From assembly GCA_009268125.1 (NCBI GenBank), contig WBOU01000017.1, forward strand, positions 62,001 to 126,000: DNA of 64,000 nucleotides, read 5' to 3'. The notes under the pieces were generated by a model that was not told the DNA's origin, did not search any database, and saw only the letters and a program-made list of their open reading frames with translations. This DNA comes from Chloroflexia bacterium SDU3-3. Lineage in GTDB: Bacteria; Chloroflexota; Chloroflexia; Chloroflexales; Roseiflexaceae. Of this stretch, positions 29,895-53,233 are shown in pieces; within the stretch, counting starts at the first letter, position 1; the number at the start of each line of letters is the position of its first letter. The position numbers and the translations under genes are program-made.

Positions 29895-31855
29895 TCCCCC
29901 TCCGCTGCACCCTTCCCCTCTTCCTGGTCGTCAGTCTTCCGTGGTTTTCACCGCCCCACGCCAGCCCGCCGCTTCCTGTGGCCGCCCGTGTCGTCGCGCC
30001 TGGTCAGGTGGTGGTCTCGGACACCCAGCTCCAGGCAGCGGGCTGGTCGCTGCCGCTCGATCGCGCGCGCGTCACGCTCACACGCCAGGGTACGACCCTG
30101 CCGCTCACCGACATCGGCGACGGCTTCGCGTGGGTGGCCCCGCAGGCGGGCACGGCCTGGCTGTCGCTCGCGGACGTCCCGGCCCCGCGCCAGGCGCTGC
30201 CCGCGCGGCTGCCCACGCCGCTCACCTGGTCGCCCGCTGCGCGGTATGACCGTCACACCCAGACGGCGGCGGGCGGGAGCTGGTGGGCGGGCGAGCTGCG
30301 CGGGGATGCGGCGCTGAGTGCCACGCTCATGCTGGACACCGCCATTCCAGCGGGCACGCCGCTCCGGGTGCAGGTGCGGGCCACGGCGGCGGGCAGCCAC
30401 GCGGTGGCGGTGGCGGTGGACGGCCAGCCGCTGCCCACGCTGCGCTGGAGCGATGCTACCCCCCAGGTCGTGACCCACACCCTGACGCTGGGGGCGCACG
30501 CGGCGGGGCCGCTGCGGCTCGACCTCGCGCAGGCGGTGGCGGGCGATACGGTCCTGGTGGCGTCAGTGACGTTGCCCACGGTCTTCCCACTGGCCCCGGC
30601 GCTCCCTACGCCCTCCCTGCGCCCTGCGGTCAGGGTGCCTGCCGACGCCGCCCAGGCGGATTTGCTCATCCTGTCCCACGCCGACTTTCTCCCCGCGCTC
30701 GCGCCCCTGATCGCCGCCCACGCCCAGCGCGGCGAGCGGGCGGTGGCCGTGGATGTGCAGGCGGCCTATGACGCGTATGGTGCGGGCGATCCCGCCCCGG
30801 ATGCGATCCGCGCGCTGATCCGTGCGCTCCAGCCCCGCGCGGTCCTGCTGGTCGGGGCCGGGTCGGTGGCCACGGGCGCGGCGGCGGACGCGCGGCCCAC
30901 GTTCATTCCGCCTTACTTGGTGGTGCTGCCGTTCGATGGCGAGACCGCCTGCGATAGCTGCTATGGCCGCCTCGCGGCGGGGGATGTGCGCGCCCAGGTG
31001 GTGCCCGACATCCCCGTCGGGCGGCTGCCGGTGCGCACGCTGGCCGAGGCCGAGGCGGTGGTGGCCAAGACCGCCGCCGCCATCACCGCCGCACCGGCGG
31101 GGAGCTGGCAGACCCGCGCGCTGGTGGTGGCCGACAACGATCTGGCGGCAGATGGCACGCCCGACCCCGCCGGGCCGTTCAGCGCGACGGTGGCCGCCGC
31201 TCTGGCGGCGCTGCCGCGCGGGATGACGGCCACGACGCTGGTCTATGCGCCGGATCAGGCCCAGGCCAGCGTCATGTGGGAGCCGGATGTGGCGCGGCTG
31301 CGCTGTCGGATGTTCCGGGCCTTGGACGGCGGGCGTGCGAGCGACACCGCCTGCGCGCCGAATGCGGCAGATGCGCGCGGGGTGGCGCTGTGGGTGTATG
31401 TGGGCCACGGCTCGCCCTGGCAGTGGGGCGCGACCGAGGCGGGGGCGGCCACGCCGTACCTCTGGTATCTCTACGACGCCGACGCGCGGCGGAACGGGGC
31501 GCAGCTGCCGATCCTGCTGGGCATGACCTGTCTGAGTGGGGATTTCGCCAACCCGGTGCTGGAGACGACCGACGAGCGGCTGGTGCTGCGGCCCTCGGGC
31601 GGGGTGCTGGCGGCGTTGAGCAGCACCGGGGAGGGTGTGAACACGGGCCACCAGGCCCTGCTGCCTGCGGTGGTGGGGCAGCTCTACGCGCCGACGGGCG
31701 ACCGCAGCCTGGGGGCGGCGCTCCTGGCGGGGCTGCGCGCCCTGGGGGTGGGGCACGCGGATCAGGCGTATACGTTCGGCATCCTGGGCGACCCGCTGGT
31801 GGGGGTGCCGTGGGTGCCGCAGGGGACGGCGTATCTGCCGCTGGTGACGCGATGA
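29891..31855 (+). CDS. secreted C25 (gingipain-like) cysteine peptidase
   Basis: The 654-aa product has a signal peptide (LFLVVSLPWFSPPHA), an N-terminal beta-rich region of about 220 residues, then the C25 catalytic domain. His506 is in VYVGHGSPWQWG and Cys547 in LLGMTCLSGDF, the spacing and context of the gingipain His-Cys dyad. The C-terminus is TAYLPLVTR, a tail type shared with two other secreted proteins here (35333 and 35916). Family members cut after Arg or Lys, or process cell-surface proteins. Given the surface-protein genes nearby, maturation of those proteins is a reasonable inference. Confidence 0.85.
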   Translation: MIPLRCTLPLFLVVSLPWFSPPHASPPLPVAARVVAPGQVVVSDTQLQAAGWSLPLDRARVTLTRQGTTLPLTDIGDGFAWVAPQAGTAWLSLADVPAPRQALPARLPTPLTWSPAARYDRHTQTAAGGSWWAGELRGDAALSATLMLDTAIPAGTPLRVQVRATAAGSHAVAVAVDGQPLPTLRWSDATPQVVTHTLTLGAHAAGPLRLDLAQAVAGDTVLVASVTLPTVFPLAPALPTPSLRPAVRVPADAAQADLLILSHADFLPALAPLIAAHAQRGERAVAVDVQAAYDAYGAGDPAPDAIRALIRALQPRAVLLVGAGSVATGAAADARPTFIPPYLVVLPFDGETACDSCYGRLAAGDVRAQVVPDIPVGRLPVRTLAEAEAVVAKTAAAITAAPAGSWQTRALVVADNDLAADGTPDPAGPFSATVAAALAALPRGMTATTLVYAPDQAQASVMWEPDVARLRCRMFRALDGGRASDTACAPNAADARGVALWVYVGHGSPWQWGATEAGAATPYLWYLYDADARRNGAQLPILLGMTCLSGDFANPVLETTDERLVLRPSGGVLAALSSTGEGVNTGHQALLPAVVGQLYAPTGDRSLGAALLAGLRALGVGHADQAYTFGILGDPLVGVPWVPQGTAYLPLVTR

Positions 31856-32490
31856 CGGGCATGCAGACACAGCTTGCGCTGGTAACGCAGCGGCCAGGGA
31901 TGAAGGCGCGCTACGCGGCGGCGGGCGTGGCGGTGGCGGTGTACCCGGTGCAGGAGGGCGGCCACTGGCCGCGCATCCCGGATGAGTTGCCGATCGTGCT
32001 GGATACGGTGGGGATGCCGCCGGAGCTGCTGATCCAGTTGCTGGCCTGGGTGCCGGACACGCTGGTGGTGATCGCCGTGCCGGAGGCCTTGCTGACGCTG
32101 CGGCTGCTGGCGATGAGCCAGGATGTGCAGCTGGTGTTGCCGGATGACCCCAACGCGCTGCGGCAGTGTCAGCGCGTTGTGCCGAATCTTATTCCAGGTG
32201 GTCAAATGGGCTGGATGATCCCGCCGCCGCTGGCGCTGGCCCCGCAGCCGGATCGGCTGCGGGTGCTGGCTGCGCTGCGGGTGCTGGCCGCGCTGCGTGA
32301 GGCGCAGACCATGCAGGCGGCAGCGAAAAGGAGAGGTGTGTCCAAGGCAACGTTGAGTCGGCAGCTGGCCGCGCTGCGTGCGGCGCTGGGTTTGCCGCCG
32401 GGCCGGGAGAAGCGTGATCGTCCGTCGGTGCATGCGGCGCAGATTCTGGAGTGGCTGGCGCAGGGGTGCGAGCGTGAGCTGGCGGCGTAG
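31852..32490 (+). CDS. atypical receiver-like protein with C-terminal HTH
   Basis: The ATG at 31852 overlaps the peptidase stop (ATGA). The 212-aa product looks like a receiver fold: strands QLALVTQRP, LPIVLDTVGMP (Asp51 at the phospho-acceptor position), TLVVIAVPEAL and VQLVLPDDPN. The acidic pair of the first strand is missing. The C-terminus (AAKRRGVSKATLSRQLAALR) is a helix-turn-helix. It may be a phosphorylation-independent or unusual response regulator. No matching kinase adjoins it, although GHKL-like and receiver-like genes follow at 34180-35278. Confidence 0.6.
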   Translation: MTGMQTQLALVTQRPGMKARYAAAGVAVAVYPVQEGGHWPRIPDELPIVLDTVGMPPELLIQLLAWVPDTLVVIAVPEALLTLRLLAMSQDVQLVLPDDPNALRQCQRVVPNLIPGGQMGWMIPPPLALAPQPDRLRVLAALRVLAALREAQTMQAAAKRRGVSKATLSRQLAALRAALGLPPGREKRDRPSVHAAQILEWLAQGCERELAA

Positions 32491-34013: not shown

Positions 34014-34056
34014 GGTGGCGACCAGGGGCAACCCTCGGTCGCCACCGTGTGTTTTT
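34014..34056 (+). terminator. intrinsic terminator after the ATPase gene
   Basis: GGTGGCGACC (34014-34023) pairs with GGTCGCCACC (34037-34046) and is followed by GTGTGTTTTT. It separates the 29505-33988 operon from the duplicated promoter cassette. Confidence 0.7.
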
Positions 34057-34063
34057 GGGGGGA

Positions 34064-34159
34064 TTTAGTACTTTTGCTAGCACCCCCCGGTACCTCAGCA
34101 TGCAAAATTGATACTTAGCAGTGATTTTTTGGCGTTCTGGCTTGCTATGCTGGACGTGG
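34064..34159 (+). promoter_or_regulatory. duplicated promoter cassette, copy 1
   Basis: This 96-bp AT-richer segment matches 45142-45237 at 94 of 96 positions; the only differences are two G/A changes. It includes an extended -10 (TGC-TATGCT, -10 hexamer 34146-34151), a poor -35, a T6 tract and internal related motifs (TAGTACTTTTGCTAGCA and TGATACTTAGCA). The first gene begins 20 nt later. Conservation far beyond the core promoter suggests binding sites for a shared regulator. Confidence 0.75.
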
Positions 34160-34179
34160 CTGATAGAAAAGGAACGGAT

Positions 34180-34650
34180 ATGAACGTGATGCTATTGACT
34201 GATGGGCCAGGGCCATGGCAGGAGCGACTGGAGCAGGCGCAGCGGCCCGCGCGCGCGGTATGGCGCGTTGGGCGGAAAGATGGGAGCGGGTGGGAGCGGG
34301 TGGGGCCGGGCGCAGACCCGTGGGAGACGCCAGCGGCGTGGGATATGTGTGTGATGGTGCAAGAGCGGCAGCGGCAGCATCTGCCGTTCATGCTGCGGAC
34401 CGCACCCGAGATCCCCATCCTGCTGATCACACCGTGGGTGACGGCGGCGCAGGCGCAGGTGACGCGGATGCGCTGGGTGCGGGTGATTTGTCCGCCCCGG
34501 CACGCGGCGGAACCGGGGCGGTTGTCGGACCTGCTGGCGATGGTGGCGGCGCTGCGCGCGGGCGCGATCACGTTGGGAAATGACCCGACGGGGCGACACC
34601 CGCGCCGTCGGCAGCAGCCGAATGGGAGGTGCTATGTATACGGTGCGTGA
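34180..34650 (+). CDS. pseudo-receiver-like protein
   Basis: AAAGGA precedes the ATG at 34180 by 6 nt. The 156-aa product shows alternating strands and helices like a receiver (MNVMLLTDGP, WDMCVMVQE, PEIPILLITPW, WVRVICPP, then LSDLLAMVAALR). The phospho-acceptor position (VMVQER) has no Asp. A basic tail follows (RHPRRRQQP). It is the first gene after promoter cassette copy 1 and overlaps the next gene by 17 nt. A degenerate signalling protein is inferred. Confidence 0.5.
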   Translation: MNVMLLTDGPGPWQERLEQAQRPARAVWRVGRKDGSGWERVGPGADPWETPAAWDMCVMVQERQRQHLPFMLRTAPEIPILLITPWVTAAQAQVTRMRWVRVICPPRHAAEPGRLSDLLAMVAALRAGAITLGNDPTGRHPRRRQQPNGRCYVYGA

Positions 34651-35278
34651 GGACGAGCAGGCGGTGGTGACGGCGGTGGTGCGGTGGCTGGAGCAGAGCG
34701 CGGCGCGGCGGCGGGGGCTGGCCCCGACGGAGCCGTATCGGATGCAGCGGACCGACACGCTGAAGATGCTGATCGAGGCGGAGGAGGCCGGACGGGTGCT
34801 GCTCGGGCTGCTGGTGCAGCTGCCGCATGAGGGGGCGAAAGCGATGCTGGGCAGTTTGGTGACGACGATCCAGACGGTGGTGACGGTGTCGTGCAAGGAC
34901 CACGAGGCCGCGCCGCTGATCACCTCACGGATGCAGCGGGTGGCGGTGTCGGCGGCGGGGGCGGTGCTGCTGCGGGACGCGCTGGCGATGTTGCTGATTG
35001 CGGCGCTGGATGACGATGCGGGGGAGTTGGAGGTGCGGCTGGAGCGGGCGGCGGAGGGGGCATGCCTGACGGTGGCGTGTGACCGACCGGGTATTCTGGA
35101 CCCGGTGCCGCTGCTGGCGGCGCTGCGGGCGGAGGTCGAGGCCCACGGCGGGAGCTGGGTGGGCGGGCCGACGCCGTATGGGGTGATGCAGGAGCCGGTC
35201 GCGACCTATGACGAGATCTGGGCGGGCGAGCCGATCCCGTCGGGCGAGAGCTGGCAGGTGCAGGTGCGGATTGCCTAA
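34634..35278 (+). CDS. GHKL/histidine-kinase-like ATPase domain protein, degenerate
   Basis: GGGAGG lies 4 nt before the ATG at 34634. The 214-aa product resembles a kinase core without input or membrane parts. A helical DHp-like segment (EAEEAGRVLLGLLVQLPHEG) contains His but no recognisable H-box. Then come AVLLRDALAMLLIAALDDDA, LEVRLERAAEGACLTVACDR and PGILDPVPLLAALRAEVEAH, which follow the N-box/G-box order of a HATPase with several substitutions. Together with the receiver-like gene upstream it looks like a simplified or dead two-component pair placed under the shared promoter. Confidence 0.55.
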   Translation: MYTVREDEQAVVTAVVRWLEQSAARRRGLAPTEPYRMQRTDTLKMLIEAEEAGRVLLGLLVQLPHEGAKAMLGSLVTTIQTVVTVSCKDHEAAPLITSRMQRVAVSAAGAVLLRDALAMLLIAALDDDAGELEVRLERAAEGACLTVACDRPGILDPVPLLAALRAEVEAHGGSWVGGPTPYGVMQEPVATYDEIWAGEPIPSGESWQVQVRIA

Positions 35279-35332
35279 GGGACCCATCCGGCTGGCAGTG
35301 GGCTGGCCGGTGGCCAGAGATGTGAGGACCAG

Positions 35333-35899
35333 ATGCGAACATCGACGACATGGCTGGTGACGGCGGCGGCGGTAGTGGTGGCGGTGGTGGGGATGGTGGC
35401 AGCGCCCGTGCGGGCGGCGAACCCGGCCATCTTTGGGCGGCACTGGATCGACGCGAACTGCAACGGGGTGTATGACGATGGCGAGGCCCCGATCACGGGC
35501 GTGTCGGTGTACCTCTACCGCTTCGGGGCGGATGGGGTGCCATTCACCTCGGATGATCGCCAGCTCCATGTGCTTGGCCTGTACTACGGCGGGGCGAAGA
35601 TGGGCTGGTATGAGGACGATGCCGACTCGTCGCGGATGCTGACGGATGAGCGCTACCGTCTGTCGATCCTCCAGGGTGGGCGGCCTGCGGGCTATATCCC
35701 GACGAAGTACCGCGCGGGGGACGACCCCAGCCGCTGGTCGTCGCTCCAGAGCAACTGGACGACGGGCGACCTGCCCAACAAGGGCTTTGCGATTGATCCC
35801 AACGCTAGTGTGACGGGCGGCAACATCGGCATCGCGCCGGAGAGCTGCACGGCGCAGTGGTACACCGAGCATGTGTACCTGCCGCTCACAACCAAGTAA
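35333..35899 (+). CDS. secreted SdrD B-like single-domain protein with YLPL tail
   Basis: The 188-aa product has a signal peptide (VTAAAVVVAVVGMVAAPVRA) and a single SdrD B-type domain with the calcium-loop phrase HWIDANCNGVYDDGEAPITG. It ends VYLPLTTK. The following large adhesin contains a closely related B domain and a similar tail, so the two probably share a surface location or export route. Confidence 0.75.
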   Translation: MRTSTTWLVTAAAVVVAVVGMVAAPVRAANPAIFGRHWIDANCNGVYDDGEAPITGVSVYLYRFGADGVPFTSDDRQLHVLGLYYGGAKMGWYEDDADSSRMLTDERYRLSILQGGRPAGYIPTKYRAGDDPSRWSSLQSNWTTGDLPNKGFAIDPNASVTGGNIGIAPESCTAQWYTEHVYLPLTTK

Positions 35900-35915
35900 C
35901 CAAAAGGACATGGCA

Positions 35916-38900
35916 ATGACACGTACACCGACGCTGCGGCGCTGGGGGGTAGGGCTTGGGGGGCTGCTGCTGGCCGCAGCGCTGACCCCCCAGGCGGCGG
36001 CCCCTCCGCTGGCCACGGCGCAGATTGACAACATGCAGCCCGCGCAGGCCTACGCCTCGGTGGTGGACTGCATCCGCTCGGGGGCAGATCAGGGCGCGAT
36101 CTCATCATTTTCGCCGCGCTTTGTGACGACCTGCTACGCCTCGCGGCTCCATGAGGGCGGTTACAACGCGCCGGGTGGGGACGAGGGCAATGGGGATGCG
36201 GCAGCGACGGAGCGCTCGATTGTGGCGTTCGGGGATGCGACCCCGGACAACAGCGCTGACCTGTACGATAGCCCGACCAATGACCATGCGACCATGGCCA
36301 CGGTGGGCGCGGTGGGGAGCACCTATGGCCTGGCCTACCAGACCGGGACGAACCCCGCCGCGCCCGCGCTGGCCCGCGCTAGGCGGCTCTTTGCCGGGGC
36401 CTACCACAAGCGGCTGACCCGCTTCGGATCGGGTGGTCCCGGTGCCATCTATGTGATTGATCGCGACGCCAGTACCACCGGCGTGTATGTGCAGATCCCG
36501 GCGGTGGTACCGGGGCCAGTGGGCGCGCCGGGGGACGCGGGCGACGGCAGCCTGGCGCGCTTCCCGAACGACCCGGCGGGCAACAACGCGTTCACGCCGG
36601 AGATGGGCGGCCTGCACCGCTCGGGGGATGACGACCACGAGGAGGGCTATGTCGGCAAGGCGGGCCTGGGCGATGTCGAGCTGGACGCCCAGGAGCGCTA
36701 CCTCTACACGGTCAACCTGAATACCCGCAAGGTCATCCGCATCGACACGTGGTCGGCCTCTCCACAATCTACCCTGACCACCATGGCCGACCCGCTGGCG
36801 CTGAACCCCTGCGCCAGCCAGGGCGGCAGCGGCAACTACCGCCCGTTCGGCCTCATGCTCACCTCCAGCGCGCTCTACCTGGGCGCGGTCTGCTCGGGGG
36901 AGAATGGCGGGGACGTGGCCATGCGCGTGGACCGGCTCGACCTGGGCACGAACAGCTGGTCGAACGCGCTGGGCACATCGCTGAGCGCGTATGCGGCGCA
37001 GCGCGGCACCTGGAACGGCTACAACCTGGCCTGGAATGCCTGGGCCTCGAACGGCGGCACGACCTACAGCGCGCCGCAGCCGATGGTGGCGGGCCTGGCC
37101 CTGGATGAGGCGGGGAACCTGCTGATCGGCCTCCGCGATCGCTACGGCGACCTGTCCTCGAACGGGCGCTATGTGGGCGGGGAGAGCCAGGGCGCGAGCC
37201 AGGGCGATCTACTGATCGCGCCATCCAACGGCGTGGGCGGCTGGGGCGCGCCGCAGAGTGGGGCCGGTGAGACCTTCGACGACGGGACCAGCGCGCAGGG
37301 CAGCTACCCCAGCGGCTGGCTGCATGGCGAGTCCACCTGGGGCGCGCTCGACTACGTGCCGGGCACACACGCGGGCGGCTACGGCGGCGAGGTGATCGCG
37401 ACCGCGATCTCGCCCTACCGCTCGAACGCGGGCGGCACCGCCTGGTGGAATACGTCGTCCGGCGGCGCGGCCACGGCGCGCGAGGAGCTGTATCAGACCA
37501 ACTCCTCGGACAAGAACACCTTCCAGAAGGCCGCCGGGCTGGGCGACCTGGAGCTGCTGTGCGCCTGGCGCGTGATCGGCGACCGGGTGTGGTTCGACGC
37601 CAACGGCAACGGCGTGCAGGACGCGGGCGAGAACGACATCAACGGCGTTCCGCTGCAGCTGCTGGATGCCAGCGGGAACGTGATCGCGAACGTGACCACC
37701 GGCAGCGTGGGCGGGATGAGCGGCAACTACCGCTTCTACGTCGATCCGTTTGCGACCTACACGGTGCGCGTGGACGGCTCGGCGGCGGCGCTGGACGGCC
37801 TGTCGCTGACCACGCCCAACGCGGGCGGGAACGACGCGACCGACAGCGACGCGGACACCCAGGGCCGGATCGCCATCCCGACGGCGGGCAACCACGACAT
37901 CAACCTGACCTACGACGCGGGCTATGTGGATGGTGCGAATGTTCGCGTGCAGAAGACCGGCCCCGCGCTCGCGCTGCGGGGGGAGGCCGTGACCTACACG
38001 ATTGTGGCCACGAACGACGGCCCGGCCTCCGCTACGAACGTGCGTGTCACCGATACGCTGCCCACGGGCCTGACCTACAGCGGGGCCACGCCCGCGCCGA
38101 CCAGCACCAGCGGCCAGGTGCTGACTTGGAACCTGGGCACCATGGCTGCCGGAACCTCGACGACCATCACGGTGGTGGCGACCGTCGGCGCAGCATCGCT
38201 GGGCAACTACACCAATCGGGCCGACATCACCACCGACACGCCGAACGACACGCCCGGCGATAACACCACCACGACCACGGTGCAGGTGGTGCGGCCCAGC
38301 CTCTCGATCACCAAGACCGGCCCGGCGGTGGCGGCGGCGGGCAGCCAGCTGGCCTACACGCTGGCCTATCAGAACAGCGGCGACGCGGTGGCGTCGAACG
38401 CGACCGTCGTCGATACGCTTCCTGCTGGGACGAGCTACCTGAGCGCCAGCCCCGCTCCGACCAGCGTGAGTGGCCAGACGATCACCTGGAATCTGGGCAC
38501 GCTGGCGGTGGGGGCCAGCGGGACGATCACGGTGCAGGTGCGGGCCTCGGCCAGCCTGGCCGACGGCAGCGCCGTGACCAACAGCGCGCAGATCACGACC
38601 ACCACCAGCGGCGATCCGCCGGGTGATAACACCACGACCACCACGACCCAGATCCGGCGGGCGGACGTGGCCATCCAGAAGACCACGACCACGACCTTCC
38701 CGGTCACAAGCGGCACCAGCGTGACCTACTACCTCGACTATAGCAACCGGGGCGGGGTCGCGGCGGCGAATGTGACGATCGCGGACACCGTGCCGTCGCA
38801 GATCACCGGCGTGACCTGGGCCTGCGAGACGGGGTGCAGCGCGTCGGGCAGCGGCAACGCCATCAGCATCGCCATCGGCACGCTGGCGGCGGGTGCGACG

Positions 38901-40475
38901 GGCCGGGTGCGCGTGACCGGGACCGCCACCACCGCGCTGGCCCGCGAGGACTTTACCAACACGGCGACCATCCGCACCGACACGCCCGAGACCGACACCA
39001 GCAACAACACCAGCGCGGTGCCGGGGGCGGTCTGGACCAGCGACGTGCAGCTGATCAAGCAGATGCCGCCGACGGCGGCGGCGGGCGCGGTCTTTACTGC
39101 CACCCTGACCTATCAGAACAGCGGCCCCGCGCCCGCTGCGGGCGTGCAGCTCGTCGATACGCTGCCGACGGGCACGAGCTACCTGAGCGCCACGCTCACG
39201 CCCACGAGCATCAGCGGCCAGACCCTGACCTGGAACCTGGGCACGCTGGCGGCGGGCACGCGCGGGACGATCACCCTCACGCTGCGCAGCGACGCGGCCC
39301 TGGCCGCTGGAACGGCGATCACCAACACCGGCAAGGTCACGACCACCACGCCGGATCGCACGCCGGGGAACAACACCTCGACGAGCACGACCATCCTGGT
39401 CACGCGGGCGGATCTGGCCATCCAGAAGACCGGCCCGGCCCAGGTGACGGCGGGCGATGACCTCGACTACACGCTCAGCTACCGCAACAGCGGGCCAAGC
39501 CTGGCGCGTGGAGTTGTCATAACCGACACGCTGCCGAGCGACCTGACCTTCGTGCGCGCCGTGCCCGCGCCGACCACGAACGCCCAGGGCGTGGCCATGT
39601 GGGCGGTGGGCGATCTCGCGCCGGGGGCCTCGGGGGTGATCACGGTGACGATGGCCAGCGACTACGACCAGCTGGAGGCTACGCGCGCGGTCACAAACAC
39701 CGTGGCCGTGGGCAGCCCAACGCCCGACCCCACGCCCGGCAACAACACCTCAACGCATACGGTCGCGGTGGAGACCGCCGACCTGGTGGTGGAGAAGACC
39801 ATGCCCGCGACGGTGATGCCCGGCGACTCCCTCGTGGCGACGCTGGCCTACCGCAACGACGGCCCCGCGCCCGCCACCCGCGTGGTGCTGCGGGATGTCG
39901 CGCCGGAGGGGCTGACGGTGGTGGCGACCGATCCGGTGGCGACCGGGCCGGGGCTGCGCTGGAGCCTCGACCTGCTGCCGCCGGGGGCGAGCGGCGTGGT
40001 GACGGTCACGTTCCTGGTCGCGCCGACGGCGGCCCCAGGGACGGTCTACCGCAACCAGGCGATCATCTCGACGCCGACCGCCGACCGTGATCCGACCAAC
40101 GACAGCGACTGGTCGGAGAGCCGGGTGATCCCGCGCCCGATCACGGCGGTCACGCTGGCCTACCTCATGGTGGCATGCCAGGCCGACGGCAACCAGGTGC
40201 GCTGGGGCACGACCGCCGAGCAGCAGACCGACCACTTCCGCGTGGAGCGAACCACCAGCGCCAGTGCCAACGGTGCGAAGGTGATCGGTACCGCGTCCAG
40301 CCAAGGCAGCCGGGGCGGCGACTACGCGCTCTGGGACCGCCCGCCGCCCGAAGGGCGGGTGTACTACTGGCTGATCGAGGTGGACGCGAACGGGCGCGAG
40401 CAGCGCTACGGCCCGGTGCCCAGCCAGACCACGACCGCGACCACGCAGATCTACCTCCCGCTGGTGCAGCGGTGA
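35916..40475 (+). CDS. giant surface protein: B domain plus six DUF11 repeats, YLPL tail
   Basis: The second ATG (35916) is preferred because AAAGGA lies 7 nt upstream. The 1519-aa product has an N-terminal signal (GLGGLLLAAALTPQAAA) and a beta-propeller-like region of about 500 residues. An SdrD B domain follows near residue 554 (GDRVWFDANGNGVQDAGE). Six DUF11 repeats start near residues 675, 795, 917, 1042, 1166 and 1289, each with (I/V)xKTxPA, a DTLPxGxxY phrase and a TxTPDxTPGNNT ending. A fibronectin-like domain and the tail QIYLPLVQR close the protein. DUF11 arrays form long stalks on bacterial and archaeal surfaces. Adhesion or mating-pair contact is inferred. Confidence 0.85.
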   Translation: MTRTPTLRRWGVGLGGLLLAAALTPQAAAPPLATAQIDNMQPAQAYASVVDCIRSGADQGAISSFSPRFVTTCYASRLHEGGYNAPGGDEGNGDAAATERSIVAFGDATPDNSADLYDSPTNDHATMATVGAVGSTYGLAYQTGTNPAAPALARARRLFAGAYHKRLTRFGSGGPGAIYVIDRDASTTGVYVQIPAVVPGPVGAPGDAGDGSLARFPNDPAGNNAFTPEMGGLHRSGDDDHEEGYVGKAGLGDVELDAQERYLYTVNLNTRKVIRIDTWSASPQSTLTTMADPLALNPCASQGGSGNYRPFGLMLTSSALYLGAVCSGENGGDVAMRVDRLDLGTNSWSNALGTSLSAYAAQRGTWNGYNLAWNAWASNGGTTYSAPQPMVAGLALDEAGNLLIGLRDRYGDLSSNGRYVGGESQGASQGDLLIAPSNGVGGWGAPQSGAGETFDDGTSAQGSYPSGWLHGESTWGALDYVPGTHAGGYGGEVIATAISPYRSNAGGTAWWNTSSGGAATAREELYQTNSSDKNTFQKAAGLGDLELLCAWRVIGDRVWFDANGNGVQDAGENDINGVPLQLLDASGNVIANVTTGSVGGMSGNYRFYVDPFATYTVRVDGSAAALDGLSLTTPNAGGNDATDSDADTQGRIAIPTAGNHDINLTYDAGYVDGANVRVQKTGPALALRGEAVTYTIVATNDGPASATNVRVTDTLPTGLTYSGATPAPTSTSGQVLTWNLGTMAAGTSTTITVVATVGAASLGNYTNRADITTDTPNDTPGDNTTTTTVQVVRPSLSITKTGPAVAAAGSQLAYTLAYQNSGDAVASNATVVDTLPAGTSYLSASPAPTSVSGQTITWNLGTLAVGASGTITVQVRASASLADGSAVTNSAQITTTTSGDPPGDNTTTTTTQIRRADVAIQKTTTTTFPVTSGTSVTYYLDYSNRGGVAAANVTIADTVPSQITGVTWACETGCSASGSGNAISIAIGTLAAGATGRVRVTGTATTALAREDFTNTATIRTDTPETDTSNNTSAVPGAVWTSDVQLIKQMPPTAAAGAVFTATLTYQNSGPAPAAGVQLVDTLPTGTSYLSATLTPTSISGQTLTWNLGTLAAGTRGTITLTLRSDAALAAGTAITNTGKVTTTTPDRTPGNNTSTSTTILVTRADLAIQKTGPAQVTAGDDLDYTLSYRNSGPSLARGVVITDTLPSDLTFVRAVPAPTTNAQGVAMWAVGDLAPGASGVITVTMASDYDQLEATRAVTNTVAVGSPTPDPTPGNNTSTHTVAVETADLVVEKTMPATVMPGDSLVATLAYRNDGPAPATRVVLRDVAPEGLTVVATDPVATGPGLRWSLDLLPPGASGVVTVTFLVAPTAAPGTVYRNQAIISTPTADRDPTNDSDWSESRVIPRPITAVTLAYLMVACQADGNQVRWGTTAEQQTDHFRVERTTSASANGAKVIGTASSQGSRGGDYALWDRPPPEGRVYYWLIEVDANGREQRYGPVPSQTTTATTQIYLPLVQR

Positions 40476-40487
40476 GGCTTCCCCTGG

Positions 40488-40510
40488 CCGGTGGGGTGAC
40501 TCCCCACCGG
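40488..40510 (+). terminator. 9-bp hairpin between surface genes
   Basis: CCGGTGGGG/CCCCACCGG with a 5-nt loop. It has no T tract and lies before a second small palindrome (TCTCCTAAGGAGA, 40512-40524) that contains the next gene's ribosome site, so it may tune expression within the operon. Confidence 0.4.
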
Positions 40511-40535
40511 TCTCTCCTAAGGAGACCCTATCCCT

Positions 40536-41693
40536 ATGAAGCGTTCTTCTCTTCTCCTGACCGCTGGGCTGCTGGGCGCGCTGGCCGTGGGCGCGATCAG
40601 CCTGGGCAGCCCGGCGCTGCCAGCGGCCCACGCGGCCCCGGCGCGGAGCGTCGGCACGCCGACACCGCCGCCCGCACCCACTGCCGAGCCGACGGATGTG
40701 CCGCCGACCCAGGTGCCACCGACCCAGGTGCCGCCGACGGCGCGCCCGACTGAGGCCCCGACCACGCCGCCGAGCGCGGTCCCCTCCGAGGTGCCGCCGA
40801 CCGAGGTGGCCAGCTCGCCCACCCCGACCCGCAAGCCGGAGCGCCACCGTGACCCCGACCCGACGGCCACGCCCACGACCACGCCGCTGCCGACCGCCAC
40901 GCCCGAGGTGCCGTGGACTACTGAGGTCGAGATCCACAAGGTGGCCGACAAGACCCAAGCGCTGCCGGGTGACACCGTGGTCTACACGCTGGTTGCCCGG
41001 AACACGGGCCAGCAGGATGCCTTCGACGTGGTGGTGAGCGACCCGGTGCCCGCCCAGCTGGCCGTGACCAACCTCCAGAGTAGCCAGGGCGATATCGTGG
41101 TGCACGGCCAGACGGTGACGGCCTACCCCGGCACGCTGGCGGCGGGCGGGACGGCCACCTACCGCATCACCGCGCAGGTGCGCGAGGGCACGGCGGCGGG
41201 CGATATCCCCAACACCGCGCGGATCACGACCACGACCACGGGCGACACCCCCGGCAACAACACCAGCACGGTCACGCTGCGCGTGCGGGTGCCGGATCGG
41301 ACCATCCAGCGCGCCCCCGCGCCGCGCATGCCTGTGACCGCCGCCGGGGACGAGGTGCCGCTGGTGGCCACGGTGGCGGCCATCCCGCCGACGGGCGTGC
41401 TGGGCATCTTCGGCGGCATGCTGGCCATGCTCGGCGGCGTGCTGCGCTGGGGCCTGCGGGGCCGGATGCGGCAGCAAACGGATGGGCCGGAGACCGCTGC
41501 GCCACGTGCTGCCGCTGAGGGTGTCGGCTACGTGCTGCCGGTGGGCGCGGTGGCGGGGCCGCCGCAGCTGGGGCCGGAGCTGCCGCCGCCTGCGCCGCCC
41601 GCACCGCTGCCGCCGCTGGTGGCGGTGGACCGCGACGAGGCCATCCGCGACGCGCTGCGGGATCTGGGGGCCGAGGATGATGCGCTGGTCTAG
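40536..41693 (+). CDS. DUF11 surface protein with Pro/Thr stalk and membrane anchor
   Basis: The 385-aa product has a signal peptide (LLGALAVGAISLGS), a stalk of PPTQVPPT-like and TPTATPE-like repeats (residues 40-125) and one DUF11 domain (VEIHKVADKTQALPGDTVVY, ending TGDTPGNNTSTVTL). A membrane helix follows (GVLGIFGGMLAMLGGVL), then a Pro-rich cytoplasmic tail of about 95 residues (YVLPVGAVAGPP, RDEAIRDALRDLG). A cytoplasmic tail of this size could dock with the secretion machinery. The next gene overlaps its 3' end. Confidence 0.75.
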   Translation: MKRSSLLLTAGLLGALAVGAISLGSPALPAAHAAPARSVGTPTPPPAPTAEPTDVPPTQVPPTQVPPTARPTEAPTTPPSAVPSEVPPTEVASSPTPTRKPERHRDPDPTATPTTTPLPTATPEVPWTTEVEIHKVADKTQALPGDTVVYTLVARNTGQQDAFDVVVSDPVPAQLAVTNLQSSQGDIVVHGQTVTAYPGTLAAGGTATYRITAQVREGTAAGDIPNTARITTTTTGDTPGNNTSTVTLRVRVPDRTIQRAPAPRMPVTAAGDEVPLVATVAAIPPTGVLGIFGGMLAMLGGVLRWGLRGRMRQQTDGPETAAPRAAAEGVGYVLPVGAVAGPPQLGPELPPPAPPAPLPPLVAVDRDEAIRDALRDLGAEDDALV

Positions 41694-43296
41694 GGCGCTT
41701 GCCATGCTGGCCGTGGGCCTTGCGCTGCTGACGAGCTGCATGCCGCCGCTGACCGTCACGCAGGCCCGCGCGACGGCGGCGGCGGGCGGGTGCTGGCCGT
41801 TCGGCTACGACCAGCCGGTGACGCCCGCGCCCGCCGCGCCGGTGGGGGTGGGCACGCCGACGGCCATCCCCACGCCCACGGTGGTGGCCTTCCCCGGCTG
41901 CACGCCGCTGCCGTTGACGCCCACGGCCACCCTGCGCCCGACGGTGGAGCCGACCGAGGTGCCGCGCCCCACACCCCCGCCCCCAGCCCTGACCGGCAGT
42001 CGGGCGGTGCTGGGCCTCCAGCCGGGATCGGCCACGCCCTGGGCCAGAGCCACACGCAGCCCGGCCCTGGCGATGCGCCCGGCGGATGGCCGGGCCGCTG
42101 TGGCCTGGCTGGTGTGGGGCGGCGGGGCGGACGTGTACGCGGGCGACGTGTGGGTGCGGGTGCAGGGGCCGCAGGGCGGCTGGGGCGACGGCCAGACGCT
42201 GGCGACCGCGCCGGTCAAGTCCTTTTATGGCGGCCTGGGCATCACCTGGACGGTGAGCGACACCATCCACGTGGCCTTCGGGCGCGGCGCGCAGGACGGG
42301 GATACCCAGATCCTCCTCGCCAGCTCGCCCGACGCCGGGGCCACGTGGGGCTTGCCCGAGGCCACCGGCCTGCGCGGGCGGGTGGTGGGGCTGAAGAGTG
42401 ACGCGGTGGGGACGCTCTACCTCTTGGCGCTCGTGGATGGGCCTGCGGATGGCCAGAGCGGCTACCCGGTGCTGGCGCGGAAACCCATGGGCGGGGCATG
42501 GACGGTGGGGCCGCGCCTGGCCAGCCACATGTTCTACAGCGGCGACCTGGCGCTGGCCACGCCGCCGGGGCAGGCGGCGACGCTGGCGGCGGTGCTGACC
42601 GACGCCAGCGGGGTGTTAGGGACGCCGCGATCTTCGGTTATCCTGCTCGTTAGTCACGATAGCGGCCTAACATGGAGCCTCACCGATCTCGCGGGTGCGA
42701 GCCGGGTGGGGGATGGCATGGTGATCGCCACCAGTGTGGTGGTCGCAGTGCGCCCCGGCGGCAGCCTGCTCCTCGCGGCGGCCTGGAGCCAGACCCCTGG
42801 TCCCGGCCCCGTCGCGGGTGCGGTCGAGGCGCGCGTGAGCCTGGACGGCGGCGCGAGCTGGTCGGGGGTGGAGACCATCGCCCAGCACCGCGCCGACGCG
42901 CGCTTCACCGACGACCCGAGCGACCCGGCCTATGTAGGCGGCTTCGAGCCGTCGCTGGCCTACGACCGCGCGACCGACCGCCTGGCGGCGAGCTGGGTGG
43001 AGGACGACCTGTCGCGGCGCGACGCGCGTGCGACCTCGACCTCGAACCGGAGCGTGCGCACGCTGCTGGCGGCGCGCGACCTCACGCCGGGTGCGGCCTG
43101 GCAGTTCGCCGTGACCCCGGCGGGCGCGCCGGACCGCCCCCCGGAGCTGACCGCCTGGGGGCAGCGCGGGGCGTTGTGGGGCAGCCCCGACGGGCGCTCT
43201 CAGTGGCTGACGATCCTCGACGAGCGCAACCTACAAGCGCGTGTAAGCGCCCAGCCCGTCCATCTCGCGGCGGCGCTGGCGCAAGGAGTTCCCTAA
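41677..43296 (+). CDS. lipoprotein with sialidase-like Asp-box (BNR) propeller
   Basis: The start is ATG 41677 or 41680, overlapping the preceding gene by about 15 nt. The 539-aa product has a lipobox (ALLTSC), a TPTP-rich linker and a beta-propeller. Three or more Asp-boxes are visible: SSPDAGATWG, SHDSGLTWSL and SLDGGASWSG. Catalytic Arg/Tyr residues of true sialidases cannot be confirmed, so glycan binding is as likely as hydrolysis. It belongs to the surface operon. Confidence 0.75.
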   Translation: MMRWSRALAMLAVGLALLTSCMPPLTVTQARATAAAGGCWPFGYDQPVTPAPAAPVGVGTPTAIPTPTVVAFPGCTPLPLTPTATLRPTVEPTEVPRPTPPPPALTGSRAVLGLQPGSATPWARATRSPALAMRPADGRAAVAWLVWGGGADVYAGDVWVRVQGPQGGWGDGQTLATAPVKSFYGGLGITWTVSDTIHVAFGRGAQDGDTQILLASSPDAGATWGLPEATGLRGRVVGLKSDAVGTLYLLALVDGPADGQSGYPVLARKPMGGAWTVGPRLASHMFYSGDLALATPPGQAATLAAVLTDASGVLGTPRSSVILLVSHDSGLTWSLTDLAGASRVGDGMVIATSVVVAVRPGGSLLLAAAWSQTPGPGPVAGAVEARVSLDGGASWSGVETIAQHRADARFTDDPSDPAYVGGFEPSLAYDRATDRLAASWVEDDLSRRDARATSTSNRSVRTLLAARDLTPGAAWQFAVTPAGAPDRPPELTAWGQRGALWGSPDGRSQWLTILDERNLQARVSAQPVHLAAALAQGVP

Positions 43297-43736
43297 TGGT
43301 ACGACGATGGATGGCGATGGTGGCCCTGTTCGCGACGGTGATGCTGGCGGCCTGCGGTGCGCCCCAGGCGAGCGCCAAGGAGGTGGCGACGCAGGCCATG
43401 GAGGCGATTAAGATCGGGGATAGCGCCACCGCTCGCACGCTTATCTCGCCCTCGGTGAATAGCCTGATTGCCGACAACACGGTGTTTGTGACAACCAATG
43501 TATGGCGCGATAGCCAGCGCCCGGTCGATCCGATGTGCGCCGCCTGCTATGGCCCCATTCTTTCCGAGACGTGGCATGAGCCAGTGGTCGCAGGGCAGAC
43601 CACCACGGTGCTCTTGACCGTGGACTATCAGAAGGCCACCTATGAGTGGACCTTCACGCTCCAGAAGGAATCAGCCGGATGGAAGATCCTCAGTATCAAA
43701 CCCTATCAGACCGTCTACAAGCACAACGACGGCTAA
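43296..43736 (+). CDS. small lipoprotein with NTF2/DUF4878-like body
   Basis: AAGGAG precedes the ATG (43296), which shares one base with the previous stop. The 146-aa product has a lipobox (VMLAACG) and a small alpha-beta domain (ATQAMEAIKIGDSATARTLI, ending GWKILSIKPYQTVY) of the kind seen in NTF2-like DUF4878 lipoproteins. Similar domains occur in T4SS assembly proteins (VirB8-like fold), so a structural role is possible. The family assignment is weak. Confidence 0.6.
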   Translation: MVRRWMAMVALFATVMLAACGAPQASAKEVATQAMEAIKIGDSATARTLISPSVNSLIADNTVFVTTNVWRDSQRPVDPMCAACYGPILSETWHEPVVAGQTTTVLLTVDYQKATYEWTFTLQKESAGWKILSIKPYQTVYKHNDG

Positions 43737-45076
43737 ACGCTGCCTTGATGATGCCCCTTATGATCGTTCTTAGCGGGATGCTGCTTGGCTGTGTGACGCT
43801 GCCGTGGTATCTGGCCAGCCAAGGCACGACGGCCAGCAGCATCCCGCGCTGGGCCTGCCCGACACCCACCCCCGAGCCGTATGGCGAGGATGGCCCCGTG
43901 AAGGGCTATGACGAGGGGATGCCCGACCCGACCACGGGCATCCCGGAGCGCCGCCCCGTCTATTACGAACAATGGGAGCAGGAGGACTTCGATGGCTTGG
44001 GTGCACCCTTCCCGGCTCCCACCCCCTACGTCAAGACCGCGACCGCGTTCTACCTCGGCCAGCTGGTCAACCTCTCCCCGGATCTGGATGTCCGTGTGAC
44101 GGTGGATGCGACCGATATCGTGAGCGGCGAACAGCAGCTCGTGGTGGTTACGGTTGACTGGACCAATCGCGGCGCGTCCTTCGCGTTCTCGCCTGCGCGC
44201 CAGGTGGGGATCAGCGCGCTGAAACGGGCCAGCGGCATTCAGGTGGCGGGGGATGGCTGGCACTGGAGCTTGGCGGCGGCCTCGCGGGCGGCGCAGGCGG
44301 GCTATGAGGAGCTGCTGGATGAGGAGGTCGCTGGCGGCACATCGACGACACAGGTGCCGATCTTCGTGCCCGCTGAGGGTGCGGTGCAGACCGTGGACCT
44401 TGCGCTGGATGTGGCGGCTGCCGCTGATCCGGCGGCCACGCCGCTGCCGGAGACGGGTGAGCTGGGCGGGCTCCATGTGCAGTGGCAGCAGGGGCAGGAG
44501 CCGCATTGCGGCCAGGCGGGGACCGAGGATGCCTCCTATGGCGAGGCCGCGCCAGTGGTCGATGCGCCGCCCCTTCCCGCCGGGACGGATGGGGTGGTCG
44601 CTTTTGCGATGGCCCAGCTTGACCGTCCCTACTGCTGGGGCGGGAAGGGCAATAGCCCGTGCGCAGGCAACCCCAGCATTGCGTTGAAGGATGGTGGTCC
44701 CTACGCGGATCGCTGCCCGGATAAGCAAGGGCTGCCCTGCTGGGATTGCAGTGGTCTCACCTGGGGCGCATACAACGCGGTCGGCGTACCCATCGGGCAC
44801 GGCACGGCCAACCAGAAGAACGAGCCGGTGGTGTGGCGGGCGGGGAGTGGAGTTGATCCCGCCAGCGTGGCCCAGCCCGGCGACCTGCTCCTGTTTACGG
44901 GCGCGAATGCGAACGGGCGTCCGGTCGGCTCGATCACGCACGTGGGCCTCTACGCCGGGGATGGGCTGATGATCCACGCGGCCAACTATCCAGACGGAGT
45001 CATTCCCACCCCCCATGTGTTTTCCTCACGTTACTATGCTCCGCTGTTAGTCTTGATCACCCGTCCCGCGCGCTGA
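43679..45076 (+). CDS. NlpC/P60 cell-wall hydrolase with membrane anchor
   Basis: The ATG at 43679 (AAGGA upstream) overlaps the previous gene by 58 nt; 43748 is an alternative start that would leave a lipobox-like MLLGC. The product has an N-terminal anchor (MMPLMIVLSGMLLGCVTLPW), an extracytoplasmic linker domain and a C-terminal NlpC/P60 domain. Cys357 is in CWDCSGLTWG, His421 in THVGLYAG and His433 in MIHAANY, the usual triad. These enzymes cleave gamma-D-glutamyl-diamino-acid peptides in peptidoglycan. In conjugative clusters they play the VirB1-like role of opening the wall, which fits here. Confidence 0.85.
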   Translation: MEDPQYQTLSDRLQAQRRLNAALMMPLMIVLSGMLLGCVTLPWYLASQGTTASSIPRWACPTPTPEPYGEDGPVKGYDEGMPDPTTGIPERRPVYYEQWEQEDFDGLGAPFPAPTPYVKTATAFYLGQLVNLSPDLDVRVTVDATDIVSGEQQLVVVTVDWTNRGASFAFSPARQVGISALKRASGIQVAGDGWHWSLAAASRAAQAGYEELLDEEVAGGTSTTQVPIFVPAEGAVQTVDLALDVAAAADPAATPLPETGELGGLHVQWQQGQEPHCGQAGTEDASYGEAAPVVDAPPLPAGTDGVVAFAMAQLDRPYCWGGKGNSPCAGNPSIALKDGGPYADRCPDKQGLPCWDCSGLTWGAYNAVGVPIGHGTANQKNEPVVWRAGSGVDPASVAQPGDLLLFTGANANGRPVGSITHVGLYAGDGLMIHAANYPDGVIPTPHVFSSRYYAPLLVLITRPAR

Positions 45077-45100
45077 CCACCTTCCTGGTGGTCTGACGCC

Positions 45101-45144
45101 AAACGGCCCGTTGTGCCTCGATGAAGGCACAACGGGCCGTTTTT
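45101..45144 (+). terminator. intrinsic terminator ending the surface operon
   Basis: AAACGGCCCGTTGTGCCT (45101-45118) pairs with its complement (45125-45142) and runs into TTTTT. It is the clearest rho-independent terminator in the window. A small GACCACC/GGTGGTC stem precedes it at 45075-45093. Confidence 0.9.
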
Positions 45145-45237
45145 AGTACTTTTGCTAACACCCCCCGGTACCTCAGCATGCAAAATTGATACTTAGCAAT
45201 GATTTTTTGGCGTTCTGGCTTGCTATGCTGGACGTGG
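45142..45237 (+). promoter_or_regulatory. duplicated promoter cassette, copy 2
   Basis: This copy matches 34064-34159 at 94 of 96 positions. The extended -10 is TGC-TATGCT with the hexamer at 45224-45229. The first T4SS-operon gene starts 21 nt later, after GAAGGAG. Downstream of the 96 bp the two sequences diverge at once, marking the functional edge of the cassette. Confidence 0.75.
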
Positions 45238-45258: not shown

Positions 45259-45870
45259 ATGACCAGATGGATAGTGCTGATGGTGCTGGCGCTCGCGCTT
45301 GCGCGCCCCGCGTCGGCGGATGGGACGCGGCTGCGGGTGGTGATGCGCGACGCCCAGAACGGCGGCGTGGCGGGCGCGCAGCTCATGCTGCGTACCGAGG
45401 ACGGGGCGCAGATCCCACTTATTACGGACGGCAGCGGCGTGGCGGTGAGCGGCGATCTCCCAGGGATGGCGGTGTGGCTCATGGGCGGCACGCTGGCGGA
45501 TGGGACGGCGGTGGTGGCCGACAGCTACCCGGCGGGGGCGGGCTTCCGGTTGGCCCTGCTGCCGGGGCAGGTGCGGGACGTGTTGGTGCGGCTGGATGGC
45601 GTGCAGCTCGTGCTCGACCCGGACATGATTTTCTCGCCGGGCGATCCGGGCGAGGCGCTGCCGCCGACGCCGGTGCAGCTGGCGGCGACCGTCCCGCCGC
45701 TCGCTGCGACACCCGTGATGGCTCCGGTGACGGAGACGGCAACCCCCATGGCCATGCAGCCGGATACGACCAGCGGCATGCCCTGGTGGGGGTGGATTGC
45801 CGTCGGCGCGGCGGTGGTGCTGCTGAGTGCTGCGCTGGTCATCGGTGTACTGCGACGGAGGCGGTCATGA
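45259..45870 (+). CDS. secreted single-pass membrane protein leading the T4SS operon
   Basis: The 203-aa product has a signal peptide (LMVLALALARPASA), a beta-rich carboxypeptidase-regulatory-like domain (LRVVMRDAQNGGVAGAQLML), a Pro/Thr linker and a C-terminal helix (WWGWIAVGAAVVLLSAALVI) followed by RRRR. This is an outside-facing, type I membrane protein. It overlaps the next gene by 4 nt. The function is unknown; a structural part of the secretion apparatus is inferred from position. Confidence 0.7.
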   Translation: MTRWIVLMVLALALARPASADGTRLRVVMRDAQNGGVAGAQLMLRTEDGAQIPLITDGSGVAVSGDLPGMAVWLMGGTLADGTAVVADSYPAGAGFRLALLPGQVRDVLVRLDGVQLVLDPDMIFSPGDPGEALPPTPVQLAATVPPLAATPVMAPVTETATPMAMQPDTTSGMPWWGWIAVGAAVVLLSAALVIGVLRRRRS

Positions 45871-48800
45871 ACGGACGGGTGCAACGTTTCGGGGTGGCCC
45901 TGGTCGGCAGTGCCGTGGTGTCCCTGGCCCCACAGCTCGCGCTGGCCGATGGCTGTCAGATGCTCGACCCCGGGTGCTATATCGACGATTTCACCCAGAA
46001 GCAGCTCTATCAGTTTAACCTCGGCATGTGGCAGATCAACCGAGGCGGCCTCGTCGCCGCGCGCTGGCTGGAAGACCTGCGCGTTTGGTTGACCGATTTC
46101 GTGTTCGTGAACGCTTTTATCAGCCTGGCGCAGCCAGTGAAGGTGTTTTTCGCGCTGGCGCTCATGGTGTTCTGGATGGTGTTCGTGACCTCGCATATGG
46201 TGCAGGGGCTATTGGATCTGAACTGGGTGAACCTCCGCCGCGCCATGCGGCCCATCCTGCTGTCGCTACTGCTGTTCACGGTGGGCGGGGATGTCATCAA
46301 GGGTGCGGAGCAGATCCGGCTGATGGGCGGGAGCGTGTTGCAGCAGTCCGTCGCTGGTGCGGTCGCGCAGGTGGGCGCGCCCGAGGTGCCGCTGGATGTG
46401 AAGGGGGATGAGACGGATATGCCCACGATTGGGCAGGGGATCTATGTGGCGACCACCTCGTGCCAGACCCCGCCACGCACCACCCCGGCGGTGTTTCTGA
46501 GCGACTATGCCGCCCGCTACCTCTGGGCAGACGCGGAGGATATTCACTGCAATAGCTGGGTGCTGCTGCCCAGTGAGTTTATCCAACAGTACTACGCGGA
46601 TGGGCAGGATATTTCTGGGAAGCCAGCGGATATCCGGGCCCGCGCGCTGGCAGCGGCAAACCAGGGGGCTGGCCGGGAGACCACAGGCTTTTTCATGATG
46701 CTGGGCGCGGTGATCGAGCAGCTGGTGCAGCTGATCTTCGCGGTGGCGCTGGCCATCGTGTGGTTCGGCATGCTGATCTCGCTGATCTTCGCGCTGTTCC
46801 TGCCGACCGAATCGCTATTCAGCAGCCAAGTGCAGGCGTTCCTGGCGGTGCTGCGGGCGTCGTGGCTGGCGTCGTTCATGATCGGCCTGGGCTTGGCGAT
46901 CTTGGCGGTGGCGGCGGCGAGCGGGGTGGGGGCGATGGTGTTCATCTGCGGGCTGCTGTTGATCGCGACGGTGATCTGGCAGGGCAAGCAGGCGCTGGGC
47001 ATCCTGGGCACGTCGCTGAGCGCGGCGAACGCGGTGGCGGGGAACGCGCCGGGGGCGGTGGGCGGGATGCTGCGGAGCTGGGGGATGACGGCGGCGCTGG
47101 TGGCGGGCACGGTGGCCACGGGCGGCGGGATGGGGGCGGCCTTGACCTCGGTCGGCTCGACGATGGTGCGGCGCGCCGGGCGGAGCCTGGGCGACAACCC
47201 GGTGTCGGAGGCGGCGGGGCGGGTGCTGACCAACCGGGTGGCCGACCGGCTGGACGCGCTCACGCAGAACGCGCAGATGGCCAAGGAGAGCGCGCTGGAT
47301 CAGTCGGCGCTGGAATGGTACGAGCGGGTGCAGCTGCCCAAGGCGACGACGCCGGAGGCCTGGGACGCAACCCAGACCGAGATGTACGAGCTGGCGCAGG
47401 CGCGGACGCAGCGGGACGCGGCGTTGCGCGAGCGGCAGGCGGCGCAGGCGCGGTCACGGAAGGACTTCCGAGGCTATCACCGCTATCAGCAGGAGGCGCA
47501 GGCCTTGCAGGAGCGGGCGGCGGCGTTCGGGCGGGCGCTGGCGGCGCGGCGGGGCGAGCCGGAGGGGGAGGATGCGCGTGACGGGGAGGCTCCTGCCCCC
47601 AGCTCCCAGCCCCGGCCCCAGGGCGCGCTGCTGACCCCCGCCGAGCTGGCGCGGGCGACGGCGCAGGCCCAGGAGGCCGACGGGGACGTTGAGCAGCTGC
47701 GCTCGGTGCTACTGGACAGCGCGGCGCGGGCGGTGCGGCGGCACGGGCGGCGGCAGGTCCAGGAGCGGCAGGCGTCACGGGCGGGGAATGGGCCCGAGCG
47801 GCGTGCGCCGAAACCGAACCCGATGCCCGAGCCGACCCTGGCAGATGCGGTCTACGGGCCACGGGCGCGGCATGGTGCGGATGCCGTGCGGCACGCGGCG
47901 GACCTGCATGCGCTGGAGCACGAGATCGCAGGGCTGGCCCGCCAGGTGGGCGAGCTGGAGGCGCTGCGGCTGCGGGCGACGGGCGGGGAGGAGCAGCAGG
48001 CCGTGGGGCAGGCGCTCGACGGGGTGCGGCGGCAGCTCGTGCAGGCGCAGGCGCGGCTGGGGGTGCTGCGCCCGGCCTCGGAGGGGCTGATCCGGGTGGC
48101 GCTGACCAAGCAGCCGCTGGACGGGAAATCGGTTGCGGTGGCGCGCACGACCGAAGGGCTGCGGATGCACGGGCACGCGGTGCGGCGGAGCCTGGTGCTG
48201 CCCGACGGCGGACAGGTGTTCCAGACCACGGGCGGGCTGGTGGCGCTGGGGCCGTCCGAGGCGGCGCAGCTGCTGGCGCTGCCGGTGGGGCAGGCGCTGC
48301 GGCTCGCGACCATGCCGGTCCCGGCGGGGGTGGTGGCTCCCCCGGATGCGCCTACCCCTGCCCCGACCGCCCCTCCCCCCACGCCCGCAGCGGCGACGGG
48401 GACGACGATCCCGCTGACGCCGCCCGCTGGGGCGGCCCCGGCCCGACGTGGGCGACCCGGCCCGCGCTTCTCGGACGCCCCGGCAGCGCCCGCGCAGGCG
48501 CGACCGGCGGCGCAGGCGCGACCGGCGGCGCAGCCGCCCGCAGAGACGACCCCAACGATTTCCCCGGCGGCGCTGGCCGACGCGCCCATGCCCGCGCCAT
48601 CGGCCCCGACGACCACGCCGCTGGGGGATGTGCCCACCGCGACGGTCGCCCCTGCGGACGCGCCACCGGCGGCTCCCGTTGCGCCAGCGGCTCCCCCGGT
48701 TGCCCCGGCGGTGTCTTCCGGTGCGCAGGTGCCGCCGACGCGGACCCAGGTGGCTCCGAGTGCACCGCAGGTCGCGCCAAGCAGCGCGCAGGTGGCCCCG

Positions 48801-52663: not shown

Positions 52664-52695
52664 GCGCGGACCCACCACCGGGCACCCCTGGTGTC

Positions 52696-52717: not shown

Positions 52718-52791
52718 AGGGCGGCGCAGGCATTGGGTGGCAGGACGCATGACCGATACGGATGGAGCCAACACAGCAAGGAGATGCCGCT

Positions 52792-53226: not shown

Positions 53227-53233
53227 GATGCAT

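Follow-up and report, generated by a model that had tools for sequence, protein, structure and literature searches.

The 64,000-nucleotide stretch of the Chloroflexia bacterium SDU3-3 genome analyzed here (the window; G000:C17:62001-126000, from a source genome of 6.76 Mb in 51 contigs) carries genes of a putative conjugative element, in which a 96-bp cassette stands ahead of an operon for surface proteins (operon 1) and again ahead of an operon for a type IV secretion system (T4SS; operon 2). In a wholly computational analysis, the two cassettes, copies a and b, are on balance best read as promoters of one element-wide regulon, with the product of a nearby gene, R, as its likely regulator. 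This reading follows from two sets of observations: diverged copies of the cassette in the same genome keep the same short blocks, and related elements carry a cassette of unlike letters and the same geometry.

A repeated cassette with conserved blocks

Copies a and b, their parts and the hairpins that precede them lie at the following window positions:

34014..34056 (+): terminator-like hairpin (intrinsic type) with T-run, just 5' of copy a; from sequence and fold
34064..34159 (+): predicted promoter cassette copy a, ahead of operon 1; 94/96 to copy b
34066..34078 (+): box 1 (TAGTACTTTTGCT) of copy a; kept in copy c at equal distance to the -10 hexamer
34090..34097 (+): box 2 (GTACCTCA) of copy a; kept in copy c, with CTCA also in copy d
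34103..34119 (+): box 3 (CAAAATTGATACTTAGC) of copy a; kept in 4/4 genome copies, with one A/G change in copy d
34146..34151 (+): -10 hexamer TATGCT of copy a, preceded by an extended TGC; no -35 hexamer at 15-20 bp
45101..45144 (+): terminator-like hairpin (intrinsic type) with T-run, just 5' of copy b; from sequence and fold
45142..45237 (+): predicted promoter cassette copy b, ahead of operon 2 (T4SS); 94/96 to copy a
45144..45156 (+): box 1 of copy b
45168..45175 (+): box 2 of copy b
45181..45197 (+): box 3 of copy b
45224..45229 (+): -10 hexamer TATGCT of copy b

The duplication that the sequence-only reading of the window had reported is real: copies a and b are equal at 94/96 positions, both mismatches are G/A transitions, and a search of the genome with the 96 bp returned copy b at E = 1e-41, which excludes chance, together with one more, diverged copy (copy c, on contig C30). 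A repeat finder stretched the a/b pair to 110 nt at 94%, because similar ribosome-binding sites follow both copies. As that reading had also stated, each copy ends about 20 nt before the first gene of an operon (20 nt before the ATG at 34180 for copy a and 21 nt before the ATG at 45259 for copy b), and the upstream flanks are indeed unrelated in sequence, yet both hold a GC-rich hairpin followed by a T-run, the stretches containing them folding at -42.5 (a) and -41.4 (b) kcal/mol.

The linkers between the boxes of copies a and b are also equal, save for the two transitions, and the pair is therefore a recent duplication. Accordingly, the earlier argument that conservation over 96 bp implies regulator sites stands only in amended form: 94/96 identity is no proof of such sites, because recent copying produces it too, and the functional argument is supplied instead by copy c and a fourth copy, d. 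In an ungapped alignment, copy c keeps only the blocks TAGTACTTTYGCT, GTACCTCA, CAAAATTGATACTTAGC, and TGCTATGCTGG, the linkers having diverged. Copy d (C17:128986, approximately 2.9 kb past the window end) was found by a pattern search of the genome with box 3 alone; it has TATGCT 26 nt downstream, at the same spacing, and is followed by an N6_N4 methyltransferase gene and then by a ParB_N gene. Blocks kept between diverged linkers would mark putative binding sites.

The pattern AATTGATRCTTAGC-N26-TATGCT has exactly 4 sites in the source genome and none with 1-3 mismatches, and the reversed-pattern control gave 0. Outside this genome, the exact pattern had no match in viral_contigs and a single one in genome_contigs, in a metagenome-assembled genome of Oceanospirillaceae, which is of the order expected by chance. 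Contig C30 may represent a further part of the same element or a second element. No tRNA gene was found on C17 or C30, nor in the window (ARAGORN), and an Rfam scan of the window returned no RNA family.

Analogous cassettes in related elements

The genes around the cassettes in the window are as follows:

31852..32490 (+): candidate regulator R, 212 aa, receiver-like domain and helix-turn-helix (HTH); HTH_1 E 3e-7, orthologues, and model
34180..34650 (+): operon 1 gene 1, receiver-like protein; homologues at the same position in three relatives
34634..35278 (+): operon 1 gene 2, GHKL/ChpT-like protein; homologues, and a low-confidence orthologue model matching ChpT/DesK
35333..45076 (+): rest of operon 1, encoding SdrD_B/DUF11 surface proteins, a BNR-like protein, and an NlpC/P60 protein (Pfam)
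45259..63959 (+): operon 2, encoding a membrane protein and large T4SS proteins; runs past the window end
53433-56063: VirB4-like ATPase, in operon 2
62958-63959: Replic_Relax, in operon 2

Searches with VirB4 within the order recovered syntenic elements at G038:C56, G038:C347, and G037:C50, plus a fragment in G013, with VirB4 identities of 45-50%; the G013 contig stops within the GHKL gene and thus ends before the position of the operon 1 promoter, and the comparison rests on three independent lineages. Among named VirB4 relatives, the one with the best coverage is encoded by plasmid pHAU02 of Herpetosiphon aurantiacus (30% identity), in keeping with the Chloroflexota origin that the sequence-only reading had assumed. 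The three long relatives keep one gene order, namely C25 peptidase, R, operon 1 promoter, receiver-like gene, GHKL-like gene, surface proteins, NlpC/P60, and T4SS, and R lies directly upstream of the operon 1 promoter in all three; in the window alone, two extra genes (32502-33988) are placed between them, so that R is the third gene upstream. In all three relatives, the NlpC and T4SS genes are directly adjacent, leaving no room for a promoter at this junction, and copy b was therefore gained in the lineage of the window.

The sequence-only reading had proposed searching related Chloroflexota for the 96-bp sequence ahead of homologous operons. The letters themselves are absent from the other 59 relatives searched (88-bp query), but an analogous cassette precedes the same types of operon. 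The two G038 elements have their own repeated cassette, with letters unlike those of the window and the same distances to a TATNCT -10 hexamer. The combination of its box 3, N28, and TATNCT occurs at 10 sites in the G038 genome (control, 0), which precede operon 1, the NlpC/T4SS region, the homologue of the window gene at 56085, ParB, and an unknown gene, twice each. Boxes 1 and 2, which lay outside the search pattern, are at fixed positions in 10/10 of these sites, including 4 that were not used to define the pattern. When anchored at the -10 hexamer, the conservation profiles of the G038 family and of copies b and c correlate at r = 0.72 at zero shift, the maximum of 81 shifts. Operon 1, the NlpC/T4SS region, and the ParB genes are the operon types ahead of which both families stand. 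The window gene at 56085-59522 itself encodes 1145 aa and contains four tandem repeats of approximately 175 nt, 72-82% alike, at 57579-58317.

These comparisons bear on two explanations that would deprive the cassettes of a common function. According to the first, the 96-bp pair is merely a recent accidental duplication of one promoter without coordinated control. Identity of the linkers as well as of the boxes is what a recent copy predicts, but the boxes and the -10 hexamer persist in two more copies, which have diverged, and the unlike family in G038 keeps the same design in ten copies; we consider this explanation already disfavoured and improbable. The second, that the cassette is a mobile repeat of the MITE or REP type that landed upstream of genes, would account for a short sequence repeated before several genes. 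Scattering at random sites, however, is not what the genomes contain: all copies, 4/4 here and 10/10 in G038, are upstream of genes and in the orientation of the downstream gene, with the distance to the -10 hexamer conserved, no copy lies inside a gene or is randomly oriented, and copies with 1-3 mismatches are lacking elsewhere in the source genome, the ten G038 copies being alike in this respect. We regard a mobile repeat as highly improbable. The description of the 96 bp as a promoter cassette is thus strengthened by the diverged copies, which keep the blocks and the -10 hexamer, and by the analogous cassette of the relatives.

Across both families, the -10 hexamer is TATGCT or TATCCT at a fixed position in 13/14 copies and TATCCC in the remaining one (1/14). 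In copies a and b, boxes 1, 2, and 3 are centred approximately 74, 53, and 35 bp before it; in this element and in G038, the boxes are located 27-84 bp upstream of it. No -35 hexamer was found at 15-20 bp in either family, the best matches to TTGACA being 2-4/6 at variable spacing; a -10 without a -35 suggests that transcription probably requires an activator at the boxes. No 18-bp inverted-repeat dyad is contained in the boxes here or in those of G038. We also considered the three boxes as repeats of one operator, for which their spacing of 21-22 bp is suggestive, but rejected this candidate, as shuffles gave no support for most pairs (the best being the direct comparison of boxes 1 and 2 of copy b, 27/500, and the inverted comparison of boxes 1 and 3 in G038, 14/500).

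In the mechanism that we propose, each module would have three binding sites upstream of a TATGCT -10 that lacks a -35, and an activator at the boxes would probably drive transcription. The same module would serve the surface-protein operon, the T4SS operon, the methyltransferase/ParB operon past the window, and the C30 locus. In G038, opposite-strand cargo separates the surface genes from NlpC, and likewise VirB4 from the 56085 homologue, with a cassette after each insertion; the G037 transfer operon is single and uninterrupted, and no second cassette was found in it. From this we infer a role for the cassette copies in holding the pieces of a broken operon under common control: an ancestral single transfer operon, broken by cargo or by a terminator, would be restarted by a copy of the module, and the segments would stay co-controlled. 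Copy b would be one such recent restart copy. Co-regulation of adhesins and secretion machinery, as suggested in the sequence-only reading, is thus supported comparatively, but its scope was drawn too narrowly, the putative regulon extending to the methyltransferase/ParB operon and the C30 locus. When G038 C184, positions 1-40 kb of G038 C347, and G037 were searched de novo, no other cassettes emerged.

The window also contains an XhoI-type restriction-modification pair at 13420-15844 (Eco57I-like methylase and XhoI endonuclease), and genes for a LodA-like L-lysine epsilon-oxidase (2319-4418, minus strand) and a beta-lactamase-family protein (5231-6526, minus strand) adjoin the element genes. 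Outside the window, a near-identical duplicate of at least 300 bp is present at approximately 20.6-20.9 kb and 37.6-37.9 kb of G000:C17.

Candidate regulators of the cassettes

The best candidate regulator is R, a likely and so far predicted binder of the cassettes. The model of a G038 orthologue (pLDDT 82.9) combines a receiver-like domain with a four-helix HTH, and its top matches in the PDB are FixJ and VpsT (5xt2, 3kln/3klo), at E values of only ~1e-3. R has no Pfam match to Response_reg, GerE, or autoinducer-binding domains, its match being to HTH_1. Residue D51 of the window R is invariant in 7 sequences and follows directly after predicted strand 3, where it may act as the phospho-acceptor; the acidic pair after strand 1 and the Lys after strand 5 are not apparent in the alignment. 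Two operon 1 products, the receiver-like and the ChpT-like protein, could perhaps modulate the activity of R; an alignment of the GHKL-like protein shows no conserved His. A search for R in PLSDB plasmids gave no match, and one in 400 genomes of the phylum added none to the known cases. The recognition-helix stretch RTFYRKLRQLR is common to the R proteins of both G038 elements, which have the same cassette, and the G037 and window proteins differ there. This pattern would fit R as the cassette binder and is compatible with ParB or a host factor as well.

One alternative retains an element-wide operator/promoter module but assigns its control to the ParB protein of the element, itself driven by the cassette in the manner of KorB. 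ParB genes follow a cassette copy both in this element and in G038, and in IncP-1 plasmids a ParB, KorB, acts as a repressor of backbone promoters (PMC4889941). Furthermore, an 18-bp palindrome, TGGTACCAATTGGTACCA, occurs exactly twice in the 6.3-Mb G037 genome, before operon 1 and before ParB (G037:C50:17256-17273 and 56410-56427; L072/L074), and could be a parS or an operator site. The boxes here and in G038, however, are not clear palindromes, and their location 27-84 bp upstream of a -10 without a -35 fits activation better than repression; we consider control by ParB unlikely.

Another alternative, which we hold to be equally unlikely, is binding of the cassettes by a regulator that is encoded by the host or belongs to a classical two-component system. 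A NarL-type pair (HisKA_3/HATPase and Response_reg+GerE genes, 27388-29282) is encoded 5 kb upstream, before the C25 peptidase, and both copies of the G038 cassette family reside in one host. Against this, the pair was found in only one other stretch (G038 C347, 1-40 kb), where neither operon 1 nor a cassette was detected, and was not recovered from the remaining syntenic elements.

Several observations weigh against a regulon governed by R. Box 1 and the greater part of box 2 are missing from copy d, and the case for reading the three boxes as repeats of one sequence is not convincing. The upstream regions of operon 1 and ParB in G037 share only the palindrome, which is different from the boxes. 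R is also paired with a C25 peptidase in stretches without operon 1. Finally, co-variation of R with its sites is anecdotal, because only three independent lineages are available, and ParB or a host factor would co-vary likewise. Further C25 peptidase and R pairs are located at G038:C347:8812-9525 (minus strand), G038:C184:45290-45991 (minus strand), and G003:C190:2819-3460; in the neighbouring stretches that were read, neither surface-protein nor VirB4 genes nor a cassette could be detected.

Relation to known control systems

To our knowledge, most of what is understood about how conjugation is controlled comes from Proteobacteria and Firmicutes. The literature on conjugation, plasmids, and promoters of Chloroflexi/Chloroflexota, of which our coverage is incomplete, yielded no control system of this kind, and the results point to an undescribed element-wide one. 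An R-governed regulon would provide conjugative elements of Chloroflexota with a candidate regulator and putative binding sites, and it bears on how mosaic elements hold one control over a transfer operon repeatedly broken by cargo. The cassettes also form a natural promoter series, with constant geometry and changed letters, in which joint change of regulator and site can be addressed. As a tentative generalization, credible but not the likelier outcome, conjugative elements of Chloroflexota may carry a self-contained circuit of a FixJ-like R, receiver-like and ChpT-like partners, and multi-box cassettes. In such a circuit, the specificity of the protein and the letters of all cassette copies of an element would change together at fixed spacing, and every cargo insertion would be followed by a new cassette copy that restarts the transfer operon, so that each lineage would have a private, insulated control code.

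The closest parallels are systems in which repeated sites coordinate several operons. On Ti plasmids, the plasmid-encoded LuxR-type activator TraR co-activates the transfer, T4SS-like mating-pair, and repABC replication/partition operons through repeated tra boxes, of which class II boxes are approximately 45 nt upstream of the start (PMC3907764). Here, too, a box upstream of the promoter is common to several transfer and partition operons; however, TraR is an acyl-homoserine-lactone receptor, whereas the candidate R is receiver-like, and a tra box is a single 18-bp inverted repeat, whereas three unlike boxes are present per promoter here. The model of an R orthologue resembles FixJ and VpsT in its receiver-like fold and four-helix HTH, and R has an invariant Asp after strand 3, but R differs from them in the lack of Pfam Response_reg and GerE matches and of an apparent acidic pair and conserved Lys. 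ComA, of the NarL family, is likewise an activator with several recognition elements upstream of its promoter, in the form of an inverted and a direct repeat (PMC4797271); its targets are quorum genes of Bacillus, and a single hexamer recurs in its elements, whereas the boxes here have no clear common hexamer.

In IncP-1 plasmids, the element-encoded regulators KorA, KorB, and TrbA coordinate replication, partition, and transfer promoters (PMC4889941). Similarly, element-encoded regulators would here coordinate partition and transfer promoters, and a ParB-family gene is present on the element under the cassette. The Kor proteins, however, are repressors, and the KorA operator is palindromic, whereas the boxes described here are upstream of a promoter without a -35 and the only clear palindrome is that of G037, the boxes here and in G038 containing none. 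A KorA-like protein was not identified. By analogy, the system would work like the TraR/tra boxes or the Kor operons, and it is a member of neither.

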